From Bacteroidia bacterium (lineage in GTDB: Bacteria; Bacteroidota; Bacteroidia; CAIKAF01), in contig JACVCJ010000016.1 of the NCBI GenBank assembly GCA_016742095.1, positions 1 through 64,000 on the forward strand: a stretch of 64,000 nt of DNA, in the 5' to 3' direction. Positions 2,679 to 54,928 of the stretch are shown here, in pieces (within the stretch, counting starts at the first letter, position 1; every line of letters starts with the position of its first letter). Position numbers and translations under genes: made by a program. Under the pieces are notes generated by a model, which did no database searches, was not told where the DNA came from, and was given only the letters and a program-made list of their open reading frames with translations.

Positions 2679-3749
2679 TTAGGCAATGGTTACGGCCGGG
2701 TCCAGGTATACGTCCTGTATCGTGTTGAGCAGGGCTATACCTTCGTGCATCGGCTTCTGGAAGGCTTTGCGGCCGCTGATGAGACCATGTCCGCCGGCAC
2801 GTTTGTTGATAACGGCTGTGGCCACGGCTTCCTGCAGGTCGCCTGCACCTTTGGAGGCTCCTCCGGAATTGATCAGACCGATGCGTCCCATGTAGCAGTT
2901 GGCTACCTGGTAACGGGTAAGGTCGATCGGGTGATCGGTGCTGAGCTCGGTATACACGCGCTTGTCGATCTTACCGTAGCTGCTGTCGCCCATCTGTACG
3001 GCCGTATAACCGCCGTTGTTCTCGGGCAGTTTCTGTTTGATGATATCGGCCTGGATGGTAACACCGATGTGGTTGGCCTGGCCCGTAAGGTCGGCCGATA
3101 CATGGTAATCTTTATCTTTCTTGAAGGCGTTGTTGCGTACATAGCACCACAGTACGGTGGCCATGCCCAGTTCGTGCGCCATCTCAAAGGCTTTGGCAAT
3201 GTCCACGATCTGGCGGCTGCTCTCTTCGGAACCGAAGTAGATGGTGGCCCCCACAGCTACGGCACCCATGTTCCAGGCGTCGCGGATGGTCCCGTACATC
3301 ACCTGGTCGAATTTATTGGGGTAGGTGAGCAGTTCGTTATGGTTCACCTTTACGATGAAAGGGATCTTGTGTGCGTATTTGCGGGAGTTCATGGCCAGTA
3401 CGCCGTACGTAGAAGCAACGGCATTACAGCCGCCTTCGATGGCCAGTTTTACAATATTATCGGGGTCGAAATAAGCGGGATTCGGGGCAAAGCTGGCTCC
3501 GGCACTGTGCTCTATACCCTGGTCGACCGGCAGAATGGATACATAACCGGTACCTGCCAGGCGGCCGTGATTGTAGATGGACTCTATGCTCCGGAGGGTT
3601 TGATTACTGCGGTTGCTGTGCGAAAAAATGCGGTCCGTGAAATCGGCACCGGGTAAAATGATCTGTTCTTTACGTATTCCCGTACAGGTGTGGCCGAGCA
3701 GATTTTCGGCCTCGTTTCCCAGTAATTCTTGTATTTTGCTAACTGACAT
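2679..3749 (-). CDS. fbaB: Class I fructose-bisphosphate aldolase (FbaB/DhnA type)
   Basis: Cleaves fructose 1,6-bisphosphate to two triose phosphates in glycolysis, and the reverse in gluconeogenesis, by a Schiff-base mechanism. The 356-aa length and the motifs [15 protein letters not shown]-like [21 protein letters not shown] and the C-terminal [10 protein letters not shown] / [11 protein letters not shown] phosphate-binding loops match the archaeal-type FbaB family. I did not assign the Schiff-base Lys with certainty. It is the first gene of the fbaB-accD-mdh run, downstream of a well-formed promoter at 3769-3800, which ties central carbon flow and malonyl-CoA supply to one transcript. Confidence 0.92.
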
Positions 3750-15623: not shown

Positions 15624-16302
15624 CGAATCCGCCGCCCATTACGTACTCACCAGTTATATTGAACGTATCGAGCGGCTTGAACTGGCCGGACAGTGCTACA
15701 ATGTGCTGGAGGCCATCAATTTTTTGCACCAGAACCCGGTAGACCTGCTGTTTCTCGACATCAACATGCCCGAACTCAGCGGTTTTGACCTGCTGAAGAC
15801 CCTCACCAATCCGCCCAAGGTAATTATTACCACCGCCTATTCAGAATTTGCCCTGGAAAGCTATGAGTACTGGGTGATCGATTACCTGCTGAAACCCATT
15901 GAATTCCCGCGTTTCCTGAAGGCCATAGACCGTTTCCTGATCACGCTGCCTGCGGATAGCGATCCCGAAGCCTTCCCGGCCGCACAACCCGATCCGGACC
16001 TGCCTTTTATGGTAAAGGTAGACGGCGAACAGGTGCGTATACATCCCGATGAACTGCTGTATGCCCAGAGCCTGGGAAATTACGTAAAACTCATCACCAC
16101 GCGGCAGACCTTCCTGGCCACCATTACCACCACGGAGCTGGAACACCGCCTGCCCCCCGCACATTTTATGCGTATTCACAAATCGTACATCGTGTCCCTG
16201 GATAAAATTACGCGTTCCGGGAACGGTTTTGTGATCGTAGGCCAAACGGAACTGCCCGTGGGCATTACCTACCGCCGCGAACTGGCCGAGCGTCTGCGCT
16301 AA
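15589..16302 (+). CDS. LytTR-family response regulator
   Basis: DNA-binding response regulator of the AlgR/AgrA/LytR type, 237 aa. The receiver domain (about 5-120) has the acidic pair Asp11-Asp12, phospho-acceptor Asp57 (LLFLDINMPELSG), the switch Thr in ITTAYSEFALES and Lys in LLKPIEF. The LytTR domain (about 135-237) shows FMVKVDGEQVRIHPDELLYAQSLGNYVKL and FMRIHKSYIVSLDKI. It is expressed with the overlapping LytS-type kinase. LytTR proteins bind direct repeats spaced about two helical turns apart; a matching array sits at 14304-14347. Confidence 0.93.
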   Translation: MTEKFRCLIVDDESAAHYVLTSYIERIERLELAGQCYNVLEAINFLHQNPVDLLFLDINMPELSGFDLLKTLTNPPKVIITTAYSEFALESYEYWVIDYLLKPIEFPRFLKAIDRFLITLPADSDPEAFPAAQPDPDLPFMVKVDGEQVRIHPDELLYAQSLGNYVKLITTRQTFLATITTTELEHRLPPAHFMRIHKSYIVSLDKITRSGNGFVIVGQTELPVGITYRRELAERLR

Positions 16303-29399: not shown

Positions 29400-31310
29400 A
29401 TGAAAAAAAGTTTACTCTTTGCAGGCTTGTGCCTGGGGGCTATTAACTTAGCCAGCGCTCAGATCTTTTCTGAAAATTTTAACGGAGTTCCGCTTACAGG
29501 CGGTACAGGTGTTTTACCTGCAGGCTGGGCCCAGTACAATGTAGACGGGCTTACGCCTGCTTCTGCAACCTCTTATATGGGTACATCGGCCTGGGTGGTA
29601 CGCGCCCAGAGCGGTAACAATGTAGCAACCAGTACCAGCTGGTATAATCCGGCCGGTGTTTCCAACGACTGGATGGTTACTCCCGCCATCACTATTCCCA
29701 ATACGGGCAACCCATACCTGCGATTTAAAGAAATGGCCTTCGAAGCTGCCTATGCAGACGGATACCGTGTATTTATCTCCACTACCGGTAACACGGTGGC
29801 CGATTTCACGAATCCTCCCGTATTAACGGTTGCTGCCGCCAATGCTACCGGACTTACCACCAAACTGGTGAACCTGTCCGGCAATATGGGCCAGACCATC
29901 TATATCGCTTTCCAGAACAACAGCAACGATAAGAACCTGCTGTTCATCGACGATGTGGAAGTGGTTGACCTGCCGGCTTACGATGCCCGCCTCAACAGCA
30001 TCAACCTGCCGCGCTACGGTGTAGTGAACACCAATACGTCTATGATACTGAACGTAAGCAATGACGGTTCTCAGGCCATTACCAGCCTTACCATCGACTG
30101 GAACGACGGAGCCGCTCACAGCGCTACCATCAGCGGTCTGAACATTGCCCCGGGCGCTTCGGCCAACGTTACGCACACTACACCGGTGAACTATTCCACC
30201 GTGGAAGAAAAAACCATCAACGTAAACATTACACAGGTAAATGCCAATACCGATGCCGTTCCGGCCAACAACACCGGCACAAGCCGTTTCAACTCCACCA
30301 GCTCTGCTCCCGATAAAGGCGTGCTGATCGAGGAAGGTACGGGTACATGGTGCGGATGGTGCCCGCGTGGTGCCATTGCCATGGAGTACATGTACGATAC
30401 ATACGGTTCACAGGGTTTCATCGGTATTGCCGTGCACAACCAGGACCCGATGACCGTTTCTGCCTATGACAATGCTGCCAACTTCGGCGGTTACCCCAGC
30501 TGCAACGTAGACCGTACGATCCTGGACGCTTCCGTATCACAGGGTCTGTTCGAACAATACTTCGCTGCCCGTAAAGACCTGCCGGTTCCGGCTTCTATTA
30601 CCATTGCCCCGACCATCAGCGGTCAGGACATCACCATCCCGGTATCTGCCCAGTTCGTTACGAAATTTGCCGCTGCTAACTTCCGCCTGGCCGTTGTAGT
30701 GGTTGAAGACGATGTTACCGGTACTTCTTCCGGTTATAACCAGACCAACTATTATGCCGGCAATGCCAATGGCCCGATGGGTGGTTATGAGTCTAAACCC
30801 GATCCGGTTCCGGCTGCCGATATGGTATACGATCACGTAGGCCGCGCCCTGCTTGGAGGTTACAACGGACAGACAGGAAGCGTTCCGGCTGCCATCAGCG
30901 ACGGACAGACTGCCAGCTACACCTTCAACTACACCGTGCCTGCCACCAGTGACATGGCCCAGATCAAACTGGTTGCCCTGCTCATTGACCAGGCCGACGG
31001 TTCTGTGGTAAATGCCAAAGAAGTAAAAGCCCAGGGTGGTGTTGCCGTGGAAGAGAAAGACGAGAACGCTTTCAGCTTTAACATATACCCGAACCCGAGC
31101 ACCGATTTCCTGAACGTAAGCCTGGAAAACAACAGCAACGTGAACACACTTACAGTGGTGGACATGAACGGTAAAGTGGTTTACACACGCGAGATCAGCG
31201 GTTCTGAGAACCTGCTCAGCGTTCCGGTATCCCAGCTGTCTAAAGGCAACTACCTGATCAGCGTTTCAGGTGCCGCTGCCAGCTACACCAAAGTATTCGT
31301 GAAAAACTGA
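29400..31310 (+). CDS. T9SS-sorted Omp28-like protein with choice-of-anchor J domain
   Basis: Secreted protein of about 636 aa. Signal peptide MKKSLLFAGLCLGAINLASAQ, then a choice-of-anchor J adhesive domain (IFSENFNGVPLTGGTG ... NNSNDKNLLFIDDVEV, ~22-195), a beta-sandwich linker, an Omp28/thioredoxin-like domain (LIEEGTGTWCGWCPRGAIAMEYM ... IAVHNQDPM, ~305-530) with a CxxC pair CGWC, and a C-terminal T9SS sorting domain (FNIYPNPSTDFLNVSLEN ... YLISVSG). The CGWC could act as an extracellular redox or disulfide centre. ATG at 29400 is chosen over a TTG three codons earlier. Confidence 0.87.
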   Translation: MKKSLLFAGLCLGAINLASAQIFSENFNGVPLTGGTGVLPAGWAQYNVDGLTPASATSYMGTSAWVVRAQSGNNVATSTSWYNPAGVSNDWMVTPAITIPNTGNPYLRFKEMAFEAAYADGYRVFISTTGNTVADFTNPPVLTVAAANATGLTTKLVNLSGNMGQTIYIAFQNNSNDKNLLFIDDVEVVDLPAYDARLNSINLPRYGVVNTNTSMILNVSNDGSQAITSLTIDWNDGAAHSATISGLNIAPGASANVTHTTPVNYSTVEEKTINVNITQVNANTDAVPANNTGTSRFNSTSSAPDKGVLIEEGTGTWCGWCPRGAIAMEYMYDTYGSQGFIGIAVHNQDPMTVSAYDNAANFGGYPSCNVDRTILDASVSQGLFEQYFAARKDLPVPASITIAPTISGQDITIPVSAQFVTKFAAANFRLAVVVVEDDVTGTSSGYNQTNYYAGNANGPMGGYESKPDPVPAADMVYDHVGRALLGGYNGQTGSVPAAISDGQTASYTFNYTVPATSDMAQIKLVALLIDQADGSVVNAKEVKAQGGVAVEEKDENAFSFNIYPNPSTDFLNVSLENNSNVNTLTVVDMNGKVVYTREISGSENLLSVPVSQLSKGNYLISVSGAAASYTKVFVKN

Positions 31311-45564: not shown

Positions 45565-46248
45565 TCAGAGCGGTTTTATGCGTTCCATCAGCAGGGACCT
45601 GTGCGCGCGGCTTACCGGTATGGCCCGGTCCCCGATGGTGATGGCGGTATCTTCGATATTGTTGATCTTGGAAATATTCACGATAAAGGCCCGGTGCACC
45701 TTTACAAAATCGGGCAGGTCCAGTTTTTCGATCATGGCCTTGATGGTACCGTGTACTACATATTTCTGGTTTTTGTCCATCACAAAGGCTACATAATCGC
45801 CGATGCTTTCGATGTACTGTATCTCTTTCAGCATCAGCTTTACCAGTTTGCCGTTGCTCTTGATGAATATGTATTCCTGGCCCGATCTGTTCTGGTCCTT
45901 CAGCTGTTTTTCCACACGTTCCACCGCTTTTTGCAGGCGGGGCAGGGTAACCGGTTTCTGTATATAGTCGGTAACATCGTGCTCAAAGGCCTGTATGGCG
46001 TATTCGGCCTTGGCGGTGGTAAAGATCACCTGGGGCAGGTTGCTGATGCTTTCTACCAGTTCCAGTCCGCTGAAATCGGGCATTTCTATATCCAGGAACA
46101 GAATATCGACCGTGTTTTTTTTCAGGTAGGCAATGGCGTCGATGGCATTATCGAATATGGCGGCAACTTCGAGTCCGGGGATCTTTTTGCATAAAAAATC
46201 GAGGCTGTGCAGGGCTACCTGGTCATCGTCAACAATAATCGCTTTCAT
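45565..46248 (-). CDS. LytTR-family response regulator
   Basis: Response regulator of 227 aa. Receiver domain (3-118): acidic Asp7-Asp8, phospho-acceptor Asp53 (ILFLDIEMPDFSG), Thr in FTTAKAEYAIQA and Lys in QKPVTLPRL. LytTR DNA-binding domain (~130-227): IFIKSNGKLVKLMLKEIQYIESIGDYVAF and VKVHRAFIVNISKINNIED. Its start overlaps the end of the hybrid kinase gene by four bases, so the two are translated together. Targets are probably direct repeats about two helical turns apart, such as those at 50742-50790 and 51061-51109 near the kinase's 5' end. Confidence 0.93.
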   Translation of the reverse strand: MKAIIVDDDQVALHSLDFLCKKIPGLEVAAIFDNAIDAIAYLKKNTVDILFLDIEMPDFSGLELVESISNLPQVIFTTAKAEYAIQAFEHDVTDYIQKPVTLPRLQKAVERVEKQLKDQNRSGQEYIFIKSNGKLVKLMLKEIQYIESIGDYVAFVMDKNQKYVVHGTIKAMIEKLDLPDFVKVHRAFIVNISKINNIEDTAITIGDRAIPVSRAHRSLLMERIKPL

Positions 46249-49200
46249 ACTAAACGGGTGTTTTGCAGTTGTACAAGACGGACCTCTTCGGCTTCGATCA
46301 GTGGAATAATTTTGTGGATCTGGTCCAGGAGAGGTTCCATCATATAAGGCAGGGGCATGAGTTCGGTTTCGGTTTTGGCCAGTTTGTTCTCCATGGTCAC
46401 AATGGACTGGTGTACCTGGGGCAGGCCGATGAGTACAAAGTTCGATTTTATCTTGTGGAGCAGACGGCGGGTCTCGGCCGTATCGTTGTTTTGCGCGGCC
46501 AGCTGTATCTTTTCGATCTCGGGCAGGTTAAAACGGCAGAAATTGGTAAAGGTCTGCTGCATGTATTCCAGGTCGTCGTGGAAATGCGCGCGGATCAGGT
46601 CCAGGGCAAAATCCTTCTGGAAGCGGTACATTTCGTCCTCGGCATCGTGTGTGCCGCCGAAGGGTTCTTTTACCAGTTCGGCCTTGAAATGGTCCTGGAT
46701 CAGCTGTATCAGTTCTTTTTCTTCGAAAGGTTTGGTGATGAAGCCGTCCATTCCGGCCTGTATGCAGCGTTCGCGTTCGCCTTTCACGGAGCCGGCGGTA
46801 ACCGCTATGATGGGCGTATGGGCACGTTTTTGTCTACGTTCTTCGGCGCGTATCAGCCCGGTGGCCGTAATGCCGTCCATTTCGGGCATCTGTATGTCCA
46901 TGATCACCAGGTCGGGCTGTCGTTCGCGGAACAGGGGCAGGGCTTCCGCGCCGTTCTGGGCCTCATCGATCACGATGCCGGTAAAGTTCTTTTCGATGAT
47001 CTTTTTCACCAGGCGCAGGTTCAGGATATTGTCTTCCACCACCAGTATACGTCTTTCGTTCAGGAAACGGTGTACGTTGCCGCTGTAGCCGGCGGGAGCT
47101 GCGTGTTTTTCCAGGGCGTTGTGCATGGTGTACAGCAGATCGTCGGCCGTGATGGGTTTTACCAGGTGTGCCGATATGCGCAGGCGTTTGCAGGCTTCGT
47201 TGATGGTACAGTCCTCTGCCGAACTGTGCAGCAGGATCACGGGTAGTTCGCGCAGGGACGCGCTGCGGTGTGCACGCAGGTTCTCAATGAACTCAATGCC
47301 ATTGGTCAGCGGCATGTGATAATCGACAAAGAGCAGTCCGGGCGTATTTTTTTCCAGCAGCAGGAAGGCTTCCTGGGCACTGCGGGCCAGCAGTACTTCC
47401 ATGCCGCGGTTGGCCAGTATGTTCTGCAGGATGATCTGGTTGTTCTCGTTATCGTCTACCACCAGCACCGAGCGTATATCGGGCAGACTGATGCCGGAAT
47501 CGGTATACACATAGTTTTCGAAGGGCAGCAGCAGGTCAAAGGAAAAGGTACTGCCTTCGTTCAGGGCGCTTTGCAGTTCGATATTGCCGCCCATCTTCTG
47601 TACCAGGTTGCGGCTGATGGCCAGTCCGAGCCCGCTGCCGCCGAATTTGCGGGTAATGGTGGCGTCGGCCTGTTCAAAGGCGCGGAAAATAATATGTTGC
47701 TGTTCGGGCGAAATACCGATGCCGGTATCGCGTACCGAAAAGTGAAAAATGCCTTCCCGGGGATGGCTGCCGGCGCTGAATGAAATGCTCAGTTCCACCT
47801 CGCCGTTATGTGTGAACTTAATGGCATTGGTAATGAGGTTCAGCAGTACCTGGCGTATGCGCACCTCGTCGCCGTACACGATGCGCGGTACCGAAGGCGC
47901 AATATTGATAAGTATTTCGAGCTGTTTGGAATAGGCCTGGTACTTGATCACTTCCATACAGAGCTCGGCGGTGCGCAGCAGGTCGAAGCGCTGTATGTCC
48001 AGTTCGAGCTTGTTGGCCTCGATCTTCGAAAAATCGAGGATATCGTTGATCAGGTTCATGAGCGTGACCGCGGAGGTATTTACGCTCTGCATATATTCGT
48101 TCTGTATGCCGTTGAGCGGGGTGGACTGCAGCAGGTTGGTAAAACCCACGATACCGTTGAGCGGCGTACGTATCTCGTGGCTCATATTGGCCAGGAAATC
48201 GCTTTTGGCCCGGTTGGCCTGTTCCAGGTCCAGTTCCAGCTGTTTGCGCATCACCGCTTCGGAAATGGACTCGGCAAAAGATTCCAGGATGGCGTTCTCG
48301 GCCGGTGTCCATATACGTTCGGTCTCGCAATCGTCAAAACCGATAAAACCCCAGAAACGCTCGTGGTGCATTACCGGGATCACCAGTACAGAACGTATGT
48401 CCTGCTGTTGCAGTATGCTTTTGGTACCTCCGTCCGGCATCTGTGATACCAGGGCGCTGAAGGACTGTCCCTGTTCCAGGGGCGCAAAGAACTCGGGCAT
48501 GGTATCGAACAGCAGGCCCTGCAGGTCGGGATTGCTGATCTGGGCGGAGGTATCGTCCGAACACCATTCGATCAGCTGACTGCAGCTGCGCTCCACGGGG
48601 TCGTTGCGGAAAAGATATACGCGGTTTACGCCGGTAGCCTCGCCGATAAAGGTAAAACAGCGGGCTATGGCCGGGATATAATCGGGATTTTTAAGCAGTT
48701 CTTTGGAAGAGGAGGCGATGGCGGCCAGCATTTTTTCTTTACGTTCCAGCTCGAGCGTAAGACTTTTGCGGGCGGTGATATCGCGCGAAGTGATGAGCCC
48801 GGTGCCCAGTTTTTCGGTGCTTTTATAGAATACGCCCGTTACATCGAGCCAGATCCAGCCTTTTTCGGGATGCTGGTAGCGGAATTCGGCTGAAATGCCG
48901 TTGCCCGGCGTGCGCATGGCCTCGCGGAAACGTTCGTGTACCGGCTGCCTCGAGTCGGCATCCACCAGTTCGAACACGCTGTTACCGATCACTTCGTCGC
49001 CCCGGCCGAACACGGTGTAGAACGAAGGCGAAACGTAGGTGATGCGGAACTCTTCGTTGATCTCGATCACCGCATCGCTGATGTTCTGCAGCATGTAGCG
49101 GCTGCGTTCCAGCTGCAGTTCGTAGTTCTTGCGCAGGGTAATGTCCTGGAAAATACCGCGGATCATGATCAGTTCGCCGTCCTCCCAGATCGGCTCGCCG

Positions 49201-50699
49201 GATACGCGCACCCATTTTTCGGTGCCTTTGGCCGAGATAAAACGGCATTCCGTATCAAAGGGCCGGCCGTTCACCAGCAGTTCGGTGCGCAGGCGTTTCA
49301 TTTTATCGCGGTAGTCCGGGTGATAAAAATGCATGCCTTTGCCCAGTTCGGGTACAAAGTTCTCGTCTACTTCGTAGATGCGGTATACTTCTTCGGTCCA
49401 TACCACCTGGTGGGTGGCAATATGCATTTCCCAGCCCCCGAGCTGACTGATGCGCTGGGCCTCGCTGAGCAGGGCCTTGCGTTTGTTCAGCTCTTCTTCG
49501 CGGCGTATGCGGTCGGTGATATCGCGGGCTTCGGGCAGCAGCAGGATCACTTTGCCCTGTTCGTTAAAGATCGGTTTTATGGAAAGGTCCACCACCGAAA
49601 GATTGCCCTGCGGACTGATGAACTGGGACTCGAAACGGGCCAGTTTACCGCGGGCGGCGCTGCGCACGGCTTTGCGTACCTTGCCGGTTTCGGCCGAATC
49701 GCGGAACCAGGGCGAATCCCAGAGTTTAAGCCCGATCACGGTCTCGTGCGTTACTTCGCCGTATTCGAGGGTGGTATCGTTTATTTCGAGTATGGTGCCG
49801 TCGGGGCTCATCAGGCCCGAGAACTGGAACGAGGAGTTGAACAGGGTACGAAAGCGGGTCTCCGTTTCCTTGATCTGGGAAAGGTTGGTGGCAATGCATA
49901 CATAACCGATGATCTCCTGTTTTTCGTTCACGATGGCGTTCACCGAAAGGTGCACGGGAATGGCGCTGCCGTCCTTGGCTATATAGGTCCACTCGCGGGA
50001 GTCGGCCGTATCGGCGCTTACCCCGGCCGTAAAAACGCCGAAGCCGCTTATTTTGGTTTTGCCGGCGCGGGTAAGCTGGGCGGCGCGCTGTTTTACCTCC
50101 GATTCTTTGTGGATGATGAGCGGCGTTACATTGCCGATCACTTCTTCGGCGGTGTAGCCCAGCAGTTTTTCGGCTCCTTTGTTAAAGAAGGTGATGATAC
50201 CCGAGACGTCGGTACCGATCATCGAAACTTCGGTGCTGGCATTGAGAATACCGTTCAGGTGGGTATTTACCATGCGCAGGCCGTTCTGGGCATGTTTTAT
50301 ATCACTGATGTTCACGATCTGTGATATAAAATGCAGGGGACGGCGGTTTTTATTGCGGATAAGCGATACGCCGAGCAATACCCAGACGATATCTCCGTTC
50401 TTGTGAAAGTAACGCTTTTCGATGGAATAGCTGTCGCGTTTGTTCTGCAGGGTTTCCTGCAACAGCAGCAGGTCGGCATCGAGGTCTTCGGGATAGGTAA
50501 TGTCCTGGAAGGTAAGGGCCAGGAATTCGCTTTCGGAATAGCCCAGCATGGCGCACAAGCGGTTGTTTACCTTAAGCCATTCGCCTTTGGTAGAAACAAG
50601 GGCCATACCGATGGTAGCGTGCTCGAATGCATTTTTAAAATGCAGTAACCCGGTATCGGTGTCCAGCTGAATCCGTTGTCCCGAAACATTGTCGACCAT
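46245..50699 (-). CDS. Multi-PAS hybrid sensor histidine kinase
   Basis: Large soluble-looking phosphorelay protein, about 1,484 aa from ATG 50699; an upstream GTG (50711) lies inside the probable ribosome-binding site GTGAGGA and is less likely. Domains in order: five PAS domains (~18-640), a GAF domain (~670-820), HisKA with phospho-His841 ([15 protein letters not shown]), HATPase ([19 protein letters not shown]), receiver 1 with Asp1126 ([14 protein letters not shown]), receiver 2 with Asp1268 ([13 protein letters not shown]) and a C-terminal HPt domain with His1415 ([13 protein letters not shown]). No transmembrane segment is obvious, so it senses a cytoplasmic signal through PAS/GAF. Its HPt domain presumably phosphorylates the adjacent LytTR regulator. 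Confidence 0.92.
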
Positions 50700-50741
50700 G
50701 TTTTTCCTCACTGATTACCCATAAAGAGGTAAATCTAAAGC

Positions 50742-50790
50742 AAATATCGTGATGTTTTGCCAAATATCGAAAAAGTTTCCCCAAACTTCG
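50742..50790. promoter_or_regulatory. Three phased direct repeats, first array
   Basis: AAATATCG at 50742-50749 and 50762-50769 and AAACTTCG at 50783-50790, spaced 20 and 21 bases (two helical turns each). The last copy is inside CCAAACTTCGAAAA, identical to the second array, and starts 40 bases before the -7 element of the following transcript. On the opposite strand the first copy overlaps GATATTTG, a probable -7 element of the hybrid kinase gene. This is the layout expected for a LytTR-type activator binding site. Confidence 0.6.
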
Positions 50791-50822
50791 AAAAAGCAGG
50801 CCTTATGTAGCGTTTCATGCCT

Positions 50823-50830
50823 TATATTTG
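50823..50830 (+). promoter_or_regulatory. -7 element of small transcript 1
   Basis: TATATTTG, perfect TAnnTTTG. At the place where TTTG (-33) should be the sequence is GCCT, so the promoter probably needs an activator. Confidence 0.6.
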
Positions 50831-50834
50831 AACT

Positions 50835-50941
50835 ATGGCAGGACAAATAGTCTGCCATAAGTTGTATAGATTATTGTTTGGTTCAACTCTCTGTCCTTAA
50901 TCAGTGAGGAAAAAAACTGCTTCGGGAGAAGCAGTTTTTTT
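50835..50941 (+). ncRNA. Candidate small RNA 1 (LytTR-linked)
   Basis: A ~105-nt unit between the -7 element and an intrinsic terminator. It starts with a 5' hairpin (TGGCAG ... CTGCCA, 50836-50857), continues with a core of 22 nt at 50862-50883 identical to the second unit, a 20-nt variable segment, the octamer GTGAGGAA (50904-50911) and the terminator stem AAACTGCTTC / GAAGCAGTTT. Bases 50898-50914 (TAATCAGTGAGGAAAAA) are identical to the leader of the neighbouring kinase mRNA. An ATG at 50835 opens a 21-codon frame (MAGQIVCHKLYRLLFGSTL...), so a leaderless micropeptide is the alternative reading. Confidence 0.55.
50912..50941 (+). terminator. Terminator of small transcript 1
   Basis: AAACTGCTTC-GGGA-GAAGCAGTTT followed by TTTTA; a textbook hairpin. 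Confidence 0.85.
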
Positions 50942-51060
50942 ATCTGTACCCTTTATCCCTCTGTAAATGATTCGCCCTCTATGCAACGGCTTTGCTTAAG
51001 CCTACTGTTTTCGTAGGGTATCAGGCCTTGAAAGTGCCGGAAATACGGGTATGCGGTACG

Positions 51061-51109
51061 GATTATCGAATACTTTTTCCAAGTATCGTAAAGAGTATAC
51101 CAAACTTCG
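51061..51109. promoter_or_regulatory. Three phased direct repeats, second array
   Basis: GATTATCG (51061-51068), AAGTATCG (51081-51088) and AAACTTCG (51102-51109), again spaced 20 and 21 bases. The third starts 39 bases before the next -7 element and lies in the same CCAAACTTCGAAAA string as in the first array. Equal spacing in both copies argues for a real protein-binding site. Confidence 0.6.
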
Positions 51110-51140
51110 AAAACTTAACGCGATCTACAGGCTTATGCAA

Positions 51141-51148
51141 TACCTTTG
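51141..51148 (+). promoter_or_regulatory. -7 element of small transcript 2
   Basis: TACCTTTG, perfect TAnnTTTG, again without a -33 TTTG. Confidence 0.6.
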
Positions 51149-51151
51149 GAT

Positions 51152-51268
51152 CAATGAACAACGGAAACGAACGTTTTTCAGGCTTGTATAGATTATTGTT
51201 TGGTTATCTTTCTGCTATCACGAACGTGAGGAAGAACAGCTGTTCCGAGAGGTCAGCTGTTTTTTTTG
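51152..51268 (+). ncRNA. Candidate small RNA 2 (LytTR-linked)
   Basis: A ~115-nt unit with the same order as the first: -7 element, a different 5' part (weak AACG / CGTT stem), the identical 22-nt core (51184-51205), a 20-nt variable segment, GTGAGGAA (51226-51233) exactly 42 nt from the core start as in copy 1, and a terminator stem AACAGCTG / CAGCTGTT with eight or more T. A frame from ATG 51154 shares the peptide LYRLLFG with copy 1 but runs through the terminator without a stop before the T-run, which favours an RNA function over a peptide. Rfam membership could not be tested. Confidence 0.5.
51234..51268 (+). terminator. Terminator of small transcript 2
   Basis: AACAGCTG, 11-nt loop, CAGCTGTT, then a run of T. 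Confidence 0.8.
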
Positions 51269-51276
51269 TACCAGGC

Positions 51277-51305
51277 TAAAAGAGCATCGTGTTACGGATG
51301 CTCTT
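51277..51305 (-). terminator. Probable terminator of the giant outer-membrane gene
   Basis: AAGAGCATC / GATGCTCTT, a 9-bp perfect stem with 8-nt loop; on the minus strand it is followed by TTTAG. It lies 135 bases past the stop at 51440. Confidence 0.55.
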
Positions 51306-51439: not shown

Positions 51440-54400
51440 TCAGAAAAAGGCGCGCACCTGCATGCCGGCCACGTGCAGCGGACTGATGGCCCGTCCCGCC
51501 CGGCCTTCGTAGGTAATGCCCGCCTGCATATTGTTACCGATGTTCCGCTGAAAATTAGCGCTCCAGGTGCCGTTGAGCCCGTTGCCCAGGCCGCCCAGCA
51601 TTTCGAAGGCCAGGTTGTTGTTGAGGCTATTGTTGTACAGGATATGATGCAGTTTCAGCTGCAGGGTAAGCACACCCTGGTTCAGAAAGTTCACCGTACT
51701 TTCTACGCCGCCCTGGTGTATATGGGCCATTTCGCCGCCGGGATTCACCGGGTTGCTGGCATTGTTCCGGTTGCGTTTATACTGGAAACCGTAGATGAAT
51801 GCAATACGCCAGCGGGTATCTTTCTGTACGGTGAATTTACCTTCGGCCCGGGCCAGGTCCAGGTTGTAATCGCGGGTGCGCAGGAATTCGGAATTGTAGC
51901 GTTTGTTACCTTTTTCGAACAGGGCCGTCAGTGTAAACAAACGGGATATATTGTAGCGGCTGCGGATCTCCCAGGATTCCTGTGAACGGCTGTCGATACC
52001 GTTGGTGAGCAGCGAACGGTTGCGCAGGTCGCGGTACTCGATGTCCACCCCGAATTTGCCTTCGTTGCGGTTGATGTAAAAGGTGTTCCGGAACGAGTAG
52101 CCCAGGGCCAGCAGGGCCGTATCGGAATAGGAGGCCGAAAAGGGGCTGATCACCGAGGCGATATTGGAATTCTGTGATTTGCGTGTAAGGCGGTACACCG
52201 TCTGGTTGCTGAAAATGCTGAGGACCTTCTGCCAGCCTTTGCCGTTCTTCCAGCGGGCCGGAAAACGCAGGTTCAGGCTCTGGTTGAACTGTGTATTATA
52301 GGTTTTGATGTATTCCAGCGAAGGTATCAGTATCTTGATGTAATTGCCCTGCCCCGTGAACTGGGCTTCCTGGAATTCGTCGAGGTCGGGTACGCCGTTG
52401 CCATTATAATCCAGCGAGGCGTCCCAGAAATGCGTGCCCTGTCCGTTGGTCACCTGCAGAAAGGAATATTCCCGCTTGTTCTCCAGCCCCGAACCGATCT
52501 CGTAATAGGTGTTGATGGTAATGCTCTGTTTCAGGAAACGGCTGTTGTACTCGATGCGGCCGGTGGTGCTTTCGTCGTTCTTCTGTCCCGGCAGCAGCAG
52601 GCTGTCCTGTACGCGCAGGGTGCGGTAATTGAGCAGGAATTTCAGGGTATGGTTCTTACGGATCACGGCCTGGGCCTCGGCGCCCATATTCTGTCCCAGC
52701 CCGGCAAAAGTAAGGGCATTATTCAGTACGCGGTGGTCGGCCCGCGGCCGGTAATACACCTTCCAGCTCAGGGCCGAGGTATCGGAAGAACCCAGGTAGA
52801 ATTCCCAGTCGTTGAACATATAACTGTTGCCCAGCAGAGAATCCTTGCGGAAGACATTGTATTCATCCTCCCCGTTAAGGCCGATACGCAGGTATTTATG
52901 GATGTTCTTGTAAAAACGGGTGCGGTGCCGCAGGAAACGGGTCTGTACGTCGCCTTCGGTGATCTGTGCGCTGCCCCAGAAGTCCAGGAACCATCCCCGG
53001 GTATTCACCGATGCCTGCAGCTGGTTGCGGTAGGCCGTGTAATCCGTCCCTTTTATAAATGCGCCACCCGAATACAGCACCCGGCTCCGGTTTTTGGTAT
53101 TCAGTTCGATCTCGAGCGAGGGTATGTACTCATTGCCCTGGGGGCGCAGGGTGCTCAGGTTCAGGTCGCGGTCAAATTCTACCGTACGCCAGCGTACAAT
53201 GGGCGTAAAGGTCTTTTCCACCTGTTCGTAGGTAAGGGTGGTGCGCAGGGAATTCTGTTTCTGTTCGCCCCGCCCGAAGGGTTTGAGCCAGTTGATCTTT
53301 ACACGGTAGGCATAGCCGTTGTCGTCCTTATTGTCGAGTGTGGAAAAAGTATTTTTGTCCAGGGTGCTCAGGGCGCCTTCGGCTTCAATGCTCAGACCTT
53401 TGGCTATGTCCCAGCCGCCGGCAAAGGTCATCATACGCTGCAGGCGCGGGGCCACCAGCTGTACGGCGGCAATATGATCGCCCGTATTGGGCCCGGTATA
53501 GCGGTATACACGTCCGTTGGCAGTAGAGCGTTCCAGCACGTAATCGCCGCTGCCGGCCGGGGTCTGACTGAAAAATACGCGGTACTGGGCGCTGTCGGGA
53601 TTGGTGCTGTAAGTAAAGATCGGGGTCAGCACGCCGTTCACAATGCTGTCGTTGCGTTTGTACAATACTTCGCTTACATTAAAGGGCACCTGGGTATAGG
53701 ACGGGCTCACGGCGTTCTGCAGACTGTCGCCCACGGAGGCCAGCAACGTCCGCTGATCGGGTGTGAGGGACTGTTGCAGGGACTGGTTCTTCAGGTCCTG
53801 TTCGGCAAAAATGTTCACCCGGTACCAGGCCTTGCCCAGCTGCCATTCGTTGTTCACGTGGTACATCAGGCGTCCGTAATTGCGGTCGCTGTATTCAAAT
53901 TCCACTACGATACGCCGGTCTTTGGTAATGAGCTGTTTGGCGGTAAAGGTAAGTTCGGCAGTATTGTAGTCGATCACGTAATCGTTCTCCCGGCCGCGGA
54001 CCAGCTGCCTGCCGTCTATAAAAACACGTTCCGTACCCGAGAGTACCACGATAAAACTTTCGCCTTCGCTGCCCGTGAGGCGGTAAGGGCCCTGGTTGCC
54101 CTCGATGCCCTGGATACGGTTCTGGGCGAACTTTCCCCGGGCAATGGCCCCGGAAGCCTGTAGCTGTAAAAGTCCGGCCGGAGCCTTCTTTTTAAAGATC
54201 ATCGTATTCTCGAACTGGGTCTGTACCTGCAAGCCCTGGCCTTTTTTCAGGAAATTCAGGAAATACGATCTCGGGCGACTGATGATAAAATCCCCGGCAA
54301 TGATCTTCTGTTTATCGATGCCCACCTGGATAAAGACCCGGTCAAAATCCTGTATACGCTGCGTGGTGCCTTCGGGTTGCAGGGGTACGTTCTCGTCGGA

Positions 54401-54928
54401 GATGGCGGCCTGTATCTCTACGTTTTCGGCCAGTTTACCGCTCAGCTGTACGTTCAGGGCCGAGTTCAGGGCCAGGCTCTGGGCGTTGCCGAACGCGATG
54501 CCGCGGGAGATACTGCCGTTCTTTTCCAGTCCGTCGGTAATAAAAATACTCTCGTCCCGGCTTTCCTCGGGAAAGGTAAGGGTAAAGGGCAGGGCAGAGG
54601 CGGCGCTGTCTTTACGCAGCGGAATACGCTGTACCGTCTGCCCGAACAGGTAAGGCCAGGTTTTATAGGAAAGAGTAAGCTGCCGTACGTCCGGGTGTCT
54701 TTTCAGGAACTGTACGGTATCGATGTTCAGTATGGCCGTGGACCAGTTCAGGCTGTACAAACCGGGCGGCAGGGTGTCGGTACCGGCCGTTATGGCAAAA
54801 GAAGAAGCGCGTATGCTGAGGGTGTCTACCTGTATCCGCGCGGCAAGCGGTACCTGCCGGATGATCTGTGCACGCACACCCAGGCCGGTAAGGAAGAGAA
54901 AGAGAGTAAAAATGCAACGCGCGGTCAT
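51440..54928 (-). CDS. Giant outer-membrane beta-barrel protein, uncharacterised
   Basis: A 1,162-aa protein with a signal peptide (MTARCIFTLFLFLTGLGVRAQ). An N-terminal beta domain (~22-190) is followed by a long series of alternating aromatic/hydrophobic strands typical of a large outer-membrane barrel (for example YRVNIFAEQDLKNQSLQQ, KSFSITINTYYEIGSG-like segments) up to a C-terminal FF. Phrases such as IAGDFIISRPRSYFLNFLKKGQGLQ recur in a Bacteroidota-specific family of unknown role whose layout recalls the gliding/T9SS protein SprA; I cannot assign it to SprA itself, which is about twice as long. No lipoprotein Cys and no sorting domain are present. Confidence 0.72.
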   Translation of the reverse strand: MTARCIFTLFLFLTGLGVRAQIIRQVPLAARIQVDTLSIRASSFAITAGTDTLPPGLYSLNWSTAILNIDTVQFLKRHPDVRQLTLSYKTWPYLFGQTVQRIPLRKDSAASALPFTLTFPEESRDESIFITDGLEKNGSISRGIAFGNAQSLALNSALNVQLSGKLAENVEIQAAISDENVPLQPEGTTQRIQDFDRVFIQVGIDKQKIIAGDFIISRPRSYFLNFLKKGQGLQVQTQFENTMIFKKKAPAGLLQLQASGAIARGKFAQNRIQGIEGNQGPYRLTGSEGESFIVVLSGTERVFIDGRQLVRGRENDYVIDYNTAELTFTAKQLITKDRRIVVEFEYSDRNYGRLMYHVNNEWQLGKAWYRVNIFAEQDLKNQSLQQSLTPDQRTLLASVGDSLQNAVSPSYTQVPFNVSEVLYKRNDSIVNGVLTPIFTYSTNPDSAQYRVFFSQTPAGSGDYVLERSTANGRVYRYTGPNTGDHIAAVQLVAPRLQRMMTFAGGWDIAKGLSIEAEGALSTLDKNTFSTLDNKDDNGYAYRVKINWLKPFGRGEQKQNSLRTTLTYEQVEKTFTPIVRWRTVEFDRDLNLSTLRPQGNEYIPSLEIELNTKNRSRVLYSGGAFIKGTDYTAYRNQLQASVNTRGWFLDFWGSAQITEGDVQTRFLRHRTRFYKNIHKYLRIGLNGEDEYNVFRKDSLLGNSYMFNDWEFYLGSSDTSALSWKVYYRPRADHRVLNNALTFAGLGQNMGAEAQAVIRKNHTLKFLLNYRTLRVQDSLLLPGQKNDESTTGRIEYNSRFLKQSITINTYYEIGSGLENKREYSFLQVTNGQGTHFWDASLDYNGNGVPDLDEFQEAQFTGQGNYIKILIPSLEYIKTYNTQFNQSLNLRFPARWKNGKGWQKVLSIFSNQTVYRLTRKSQNSNIASVISPFSASYSDTALLALGYSFRNTFYINRNEGKFGVDIEYRDLRNRSLLTNGIDSRSQESWEIRSRYNISRLFTLTALFEKGNKRYNSEFLRTRDYNLDLARAEGKFTVQKDTRWRIAFIYGFQYKRNRNNASNPVNPGGEMAHIHQGGVESTVNFLNQGVLTLQLKLHHILYNNSLNNNLAFEMLGGLGNGLNGTWSANFQRNIGNNMQAGITYEGRAGRAISPLHVAGMQVRAFF

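Follow-up and report, generated by a model that had tools for sequence, protein, structure and literature searches.

Candidate twin small RNAs with an identical core beside a hybrid-kinase/LytTR operon in a Bacteroidia bacterium

What do two similar tandem units beside a hybrid-kinase/LytTR operon encode, and what controls them? The units lie in a 64,000-nucleotide stretch of DNA from a Bacteroidia bacterium (the window), within the 728-bp intergenic region that separates the start of the kinase gene on the minus strand from a convergent gene for a 1162-aa protein. This region is richer in AT than the window (60% compared with 47%). The sequence-only reading of the region had proposed regulated twin small RNAs (sRNAs) under the control of the LytTR protein that partners the kinase.

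Anatomy of the two units

Both units run in one orientation and follow the same order of elements, namely direct repeats, a -7 box, a variable 5' part, a 22-nt core, a 20-nt stretch, GTGAGGAA and a terminator. The core, a putative antisense seed, is identical in its two copies (50862-50883 and 51184-51205, plus strand). The longest exact repeat in the intergenic region measures 22 nt, whereas 500 dinucleotide shuffles averaged 8.9 and never exceeded 14, and the best 40-nt ungapped self-match of the repeat zone is identical at 31/40 positions, where 150 shuffles reached at most 26. Behind the core comes the 20-nt variable stretch and then GTGAGGAA, which in both units begins exactly 42 nt after the core does (50904-50911 and 51226-51233, plus strand). 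Each unit is closed by an intrinsic terminator on the plus strand, at 50910-50941 (a 14-bp perfect stem with a T7 tail) and at about 51232-51267, with stem energies of -17.9 and -19.3 kcal/mol, respectively, far better than those of shuffles (z below -5). The shared order, the identical core, the distance to GTGAGGAA and the terminators had all been claimed beforehand, and all were recovered in detail.

We predict two transcripts on the plus strand: one of about 107 nt (50835-50941), consisting of a 5' hairpin, the core, the variable stretch and the terminator, its 5' end predicted from the promoter position, and one of about 114 nt (51154-51267), its 5' end likewise predicted. Since the downstream neighbour is convergent and the kinase divergent, the units cannot serve as the leader of any gene. 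Each has its own promoter and intrinsic terminator without an adjacent coding frame, and the best reading is that both are free-standing small-RNA genes. Two folding results count against the reading as sRNAs: once the terminator is removed, RNA 2 is no more stably folded than shuffles, and the core is partly paired in the predicted folds (mean unpaired 0.42 and 0.60). The convergent neighbour (51440-54928, minus strand) encodes a protein with a signal-peptide-like start and without a Pfam or NCBIfam match. An 11-mer of the core, ATTGTTTGGTT, also occurs at locus L221 on contig C31 (G000:C31:14547-14557), where the surrounding stretch follows a TACCTTTG promoter and resembles the leader of a ribosomal RNA.

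Direct repeats, promoters and the neighbouring regulator

The kinase gene (46245-50711, minus strand) encodes PAS repeats, GAF, HisKA and HATPase domains, two receivers and an Hpt domain, and its likely start is the ATG at 50699, behind GTGAGGAAAAAC. Its 3' end overlaps by 4 bases the gene for a response regulator (45565-46248, minus strand), in whose product Pfam identifies a receiver (Response_reg) and a LytTR DNA-binding domain. The units thus adjoin, and diverge from, a kinase partnered by a LytTR regulator, as had been supposed. In genomes of the Cyclobacteriaceae type (L033, L034, L035, L036, L037), a related PAS hybrid kinase is convergent to a LytTR regulator gene rather than sharing an operon with it. 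The window also contains a second LytTR-domain gene, at 16030-16296 (plus strand).

Upstream of each unit, three direct repeats with periods of 20 and 21 form a candidate operator on the plus strand. Operator 1 (50741-50794) consists of CAAATATCG (50741-50749), CAAATATCG (50761-50769) and CAAACTTCG (50782-50790), and operator 2 (51060-51113) of GGATTATCG (51060-51068), CAAGTATCG (51080-51088) and CAAACTTCG (51101-51109); the first repeat of unit 2 matches that of unit 1 at 6/9 positions. The repeats are followed by a -7 promoter element of the Bacteroidota type, TATATTTG at 50823-50830 in unit 1, without a -33 element, and TACCTTTG at 51141-51148 in unit 2, without a -33 TTTG. These are the only TAnnTTTG boxes on either strand of the intergenic region, and they begin 41 nt (unit 1) and 40 nt (unit 2) from the start of the third repeat. 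Repeats and promoters alike had been described correctly by the sequence-only reading.

This arrangement fits published LytTR operators. In the LytTR Regulatory Systems of Streptococcus and Bacteroides, direct repeats of 9-11 bp with spacers of 11-13 bp stand close upstream of the promoter (PMC6193735), and the repeats here are 9 bp long with spacers of 11 and 12 bp. In the Bacteroides operator, the repeat is followed by 11 bp, a 4-bp -33 element, 19 bp and then TATCTTTG, so that 34 bp separate the repeat from the -7 box (PMC6193735); the corresponding distance from the last repeat to TAnnTTTG is 32 bp in unit 1 and 31 bp in unit 2. Within the whole 3.7-Mb genome, pairs of the repeat motif with at most one mismatch occur only at these two operators. 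This restriction to the locus makes the neighbouring LytTR regulator the best candidate activator. On the minus strand, the best candidate for a kinase -7 box, GATATTTG (50748-50741), lies within the first repeat, and a bound regulator would therefore be expected to repress the kinase. Among other matches to the repeat motif, two inspected genome sites (contigs C55 and C51) are not paired sRNA operators, and one in the window, at 30640, falls inside a gene. At positions 3361-3415 of locus L139 on contig C55, three loosely similar repeats with a period of about 21 bp bear a weak likeness to the operator and run up to, or into, the start of a gene.

Distribution and candidate targets

Neither unit matches an Rfam family at the gathering threshold, so the comparison returned no unrelated known RNA, which had been named as a refuting outcome. 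The only notable sub-threshold match, BTnc231, scored 27.6 bits against a cut-off of 80.4; being weak, terminator-driven and aligned mainly over the unit 1 terminator, it was rejected as an identity for the units. Pattern searches for the core in 60 and then 395 genomes gave matches no commoner than a reversed control, and the matches inspected elsewhere were without GTGAGGAA at the right distance and without a terminator. A covariance model built from both copies, in effect a sequence model because its RNAalifold structure missed the terminator, scored its own copies at about 100 bits across the 395 genomes, whereas the best other match reached 32 bits (E 0.01 per genome), which is chance level; there was no recurrence above chance in the 394 other genomes. 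The core with its context is absent from 15 genomes of the same family and 379 others of the class, a set that includes no genome of the same genus. The family yielded no full-length kinase orthologue, nothing comparable to the repeats or the core was seen near the related kinases and regulators examined, including those of Cyclobacteriaceae with a convergent LytTR gene, and viral contigs gave no match. As neither the core nor the covariance model recurs in the 394 other genomes of the class, the units are, by these searches, lineage-restricted.

If the core acts as an antisense seed, its complements may mark targets. We combined whole-genome pattern searches for complements of core pieces with a 0.44-Mb sample. 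Three pattern searches returned 6 non-self sites, 3 of which fall in sense translation-start regions, compared with 12% for shuffled patterns (P about 0.02); because the three patterns overlap, this modest enrichment over six sites is suggestive only. All 3 stand a short way upstream of an ATG. The candidate targets are the Peripla_BP_2 protein encoded first in a FecCD ABC operon (contig C48, site -21 to -6) and a T9SS-exported kelch/choice-of-anchor protein (contig C34, -23 to -13), with a further candidate site before a TerC-like protein named from its N-terminal sequence alone (contig C69, -35 to -23). By core duplex energy the C34 site ranks first and the C48 site third among 354 sampled start regions, both having been pre-selected from the whole genome, and in cofolding with each RNA both are in the top 14 of 347. 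A T9SS-exported protein on contig C30 has a cofolding score as good as these two.

Alternative readings and comparison with known systems

The ribosome-binding region of the kinase mRNA raises the question of whether the RNAs act close to home. Its start region reads TAATCAGTGAGGAAAAAC-ATG, and the first 17 bases, TAATCAGTGAGGAAAAA (50701-50717, minus strand), recur without change and in the same sense at 50898-50914 of unit 1 (plus strand), a stretch that includes GTGAGGAA; the sequence-only reading had not listed this feature. No other site in the genome matches this element with fewer than 2 mismatches. In the 64-kb window GTGAGGAA occurs three times (1.3 expected), only in both units and at the kinase start, and the local alignment of the kinase leader with unit 1 beats all 2000 shuffles. 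Taken together, these observations indicate that the kinase leader and both RNAs carry one element, its sharing being either inherited by inverted duplication or functional. They also favour a reading, possible but doubtful in our view, in which the units work mainly in cis on the two-component operon as feedback, either sponging a regulator of kinase translation through the copied ribosome-binding region or pairing with the lytTR start. The latter forms the best core duplex among the 45 window genes (-14.4 kcal/mol). However, some 2-3% of random stretches or shuffled cores do as well as that duplex, cofolding gains 8-9 kcal/mol only, GTGAGGAA is mostly paired in the predicted folds, and an inverted duplication alone might account for the 17-nt identity. 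More speculatively, the locus could be a dedicated LytTR two-component system whose main output is a paralogous sRNA pair carrying a copy of the kinase ribosome-binding region, thereby combining a seed for antisense pairing in trans with feedback on the translation of the sensor.

The remaining alternatives concern what the units are and what controls them. They could be genes for leaderless small proteins, starting at the ATGs at 50835 and 51154, 5-6 nt after the -7 boxes; these lie in frame 27 and 30 nt before the core, which reads LYRLLFG in both units, and unit 1 yields a 21-aa ORF, MAGQIVCHKLYRLLFGSTLCP. The frame of unit 2, however, reads through the terminator, whose T-run is at 51267, and closes only at 51279; outside the core the two peptides have nothing in common, and neither unit has a ribosome-binding site. 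Moreover, not one synonymous site of the core codons differs between the units (about 5e-5 on simple codon degeneracy, if synonymous sites are saturated), which argues for selection on the nucleic acid and leaves coding unlikely. Equally improbable is that the region is what remains, without function, of a tandem duplication whose exact identities stem from recent gene conversion. Such a remnant would suit units found in a single genome, the second of them weaker in its first repeat and in structure, yet conservation here is patchy and falls exactly on functional elements in fixed register (both promoters, terminators and operator geometry), which a decaying duplicate would be expected to lose first. 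There is a somewhat better chance, still a minority one, that the twin sRNAs are real but answer to another regulator. Because the genome holds 17 LytTR domains, assignment to the adjacent protein rests on adjacency, and direct repeats are bound by many transcription factors. Adjacency and an operator restricted to the locus nonetheless favour a dedicated local regulator, and the adjacent LytTR protein is the likeliest, though not the only, candidate for control of both units.

Given that order and distances are conserved between two units that have otherwise diverged, we consider it fairly probable that the locus encodes lineage-specific, regulator-controlled twin sRNAs that act in trans under LytTR control. 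The proposal that we set out from thus stands as the best reading: its anatomy, the locus-specific repeats and the fit to published LytTR operators, including that of Bacteroides (PMC6193735), are borne out, while transcription and LytTR binding are what we infer from them. According to this model, two tandem free-standing RNAs of about 107 and 114 nt would be transcribed divergently from the hybrid-kinase/LytTR operon. Each of the two weak promoters, which lack a -33 element, would be activated by binding of the phosphorylated regulator to the three direct repeats in front of it, and the same bound protein, covering GATATTTG, would turn down its own operon. The RNAs would then act through their identical core by pairing with the translation-start regions of target mRNAs, of which those encoding envelope and secreted proteins are the best computed candidates. 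The two RNAs have diverged in their 5' part and in the 20-nt stretch behind the core. The GTGAGGAA region may have been inherited from the kinase leader or may compete with it for the same binder. To our knowledge, the transcriptional regulator is known for very few Bacteroidota sRNAs. The locus may offer a compact case in this phylum, in which a two-component system appears to act mainly via two RNAs and in which operator, promoter, seed and candidate targets are all specified as predictions.

VirR of Clostridium perfringens is a LytTR-type two-component regulator. In the VirSR system, VirR binds direct repeats, the VirR boxes, and activates several signal-spreading sRNAs, VR-RNA, VirT and VirU (PMC4877802). 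This system resembles our locus, as read from its sequence, in combining a LytTR-type regulator, direct repeats and an sRNA output. It differs in belonging to another phylum and in that its sRNAs are not two tandem copies sharing an identical core next to the kinase; the kinase here is a PAS-rich hybrid with an Hpt domain. We found no LytTR-sRNA pair for Bacteroidota in the open full-text literature; the LytTR-driven sRNAs found there are all from Firmicutes, where the twin-sRNA kind is known. Paralogous sRNA families are already known in Bacteroides: members of the FopS/GibS family of Bacteroides thetaiotaomicron share a seed, carry a terminator hairpin and repress at the start codons of envelope-protein mRNAs (PMC11697453). 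The units described here share the first two of these traits, their seed being putative, but the 14 members of FopS have canonical promoters, and LytTR control is not known for them.

The operators of LytTR Regulatory Systems drive the regulator's own operon, and the partner there is a membrane inhibitor rather than a kinase; here, the three repeats precede predicted RNA genes. In GacS/BarA systems, a hybrid kinase with a receiver and an Hpt domain controls a redundant sRNA pair (RsmY/Z or CsrB/C), and RNAs that act as CsrA/RsmA sponges carry several GGA motifs in hairpin loops. Such repeated GGA motifs are lacking in the RNAs predicted here, and we rejected a sponge identity because their single shared GGA lies within GTGAGGAA and is predicted to be mostly paired. 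The output regulator also differs, being of the LuxR type in GacS/BarA and LytTR at this locus. Of the NCBIfam models, BarA fits the C-terminal half of the kinase best, with a score of 468.8 that is far below the cut-off of 890.
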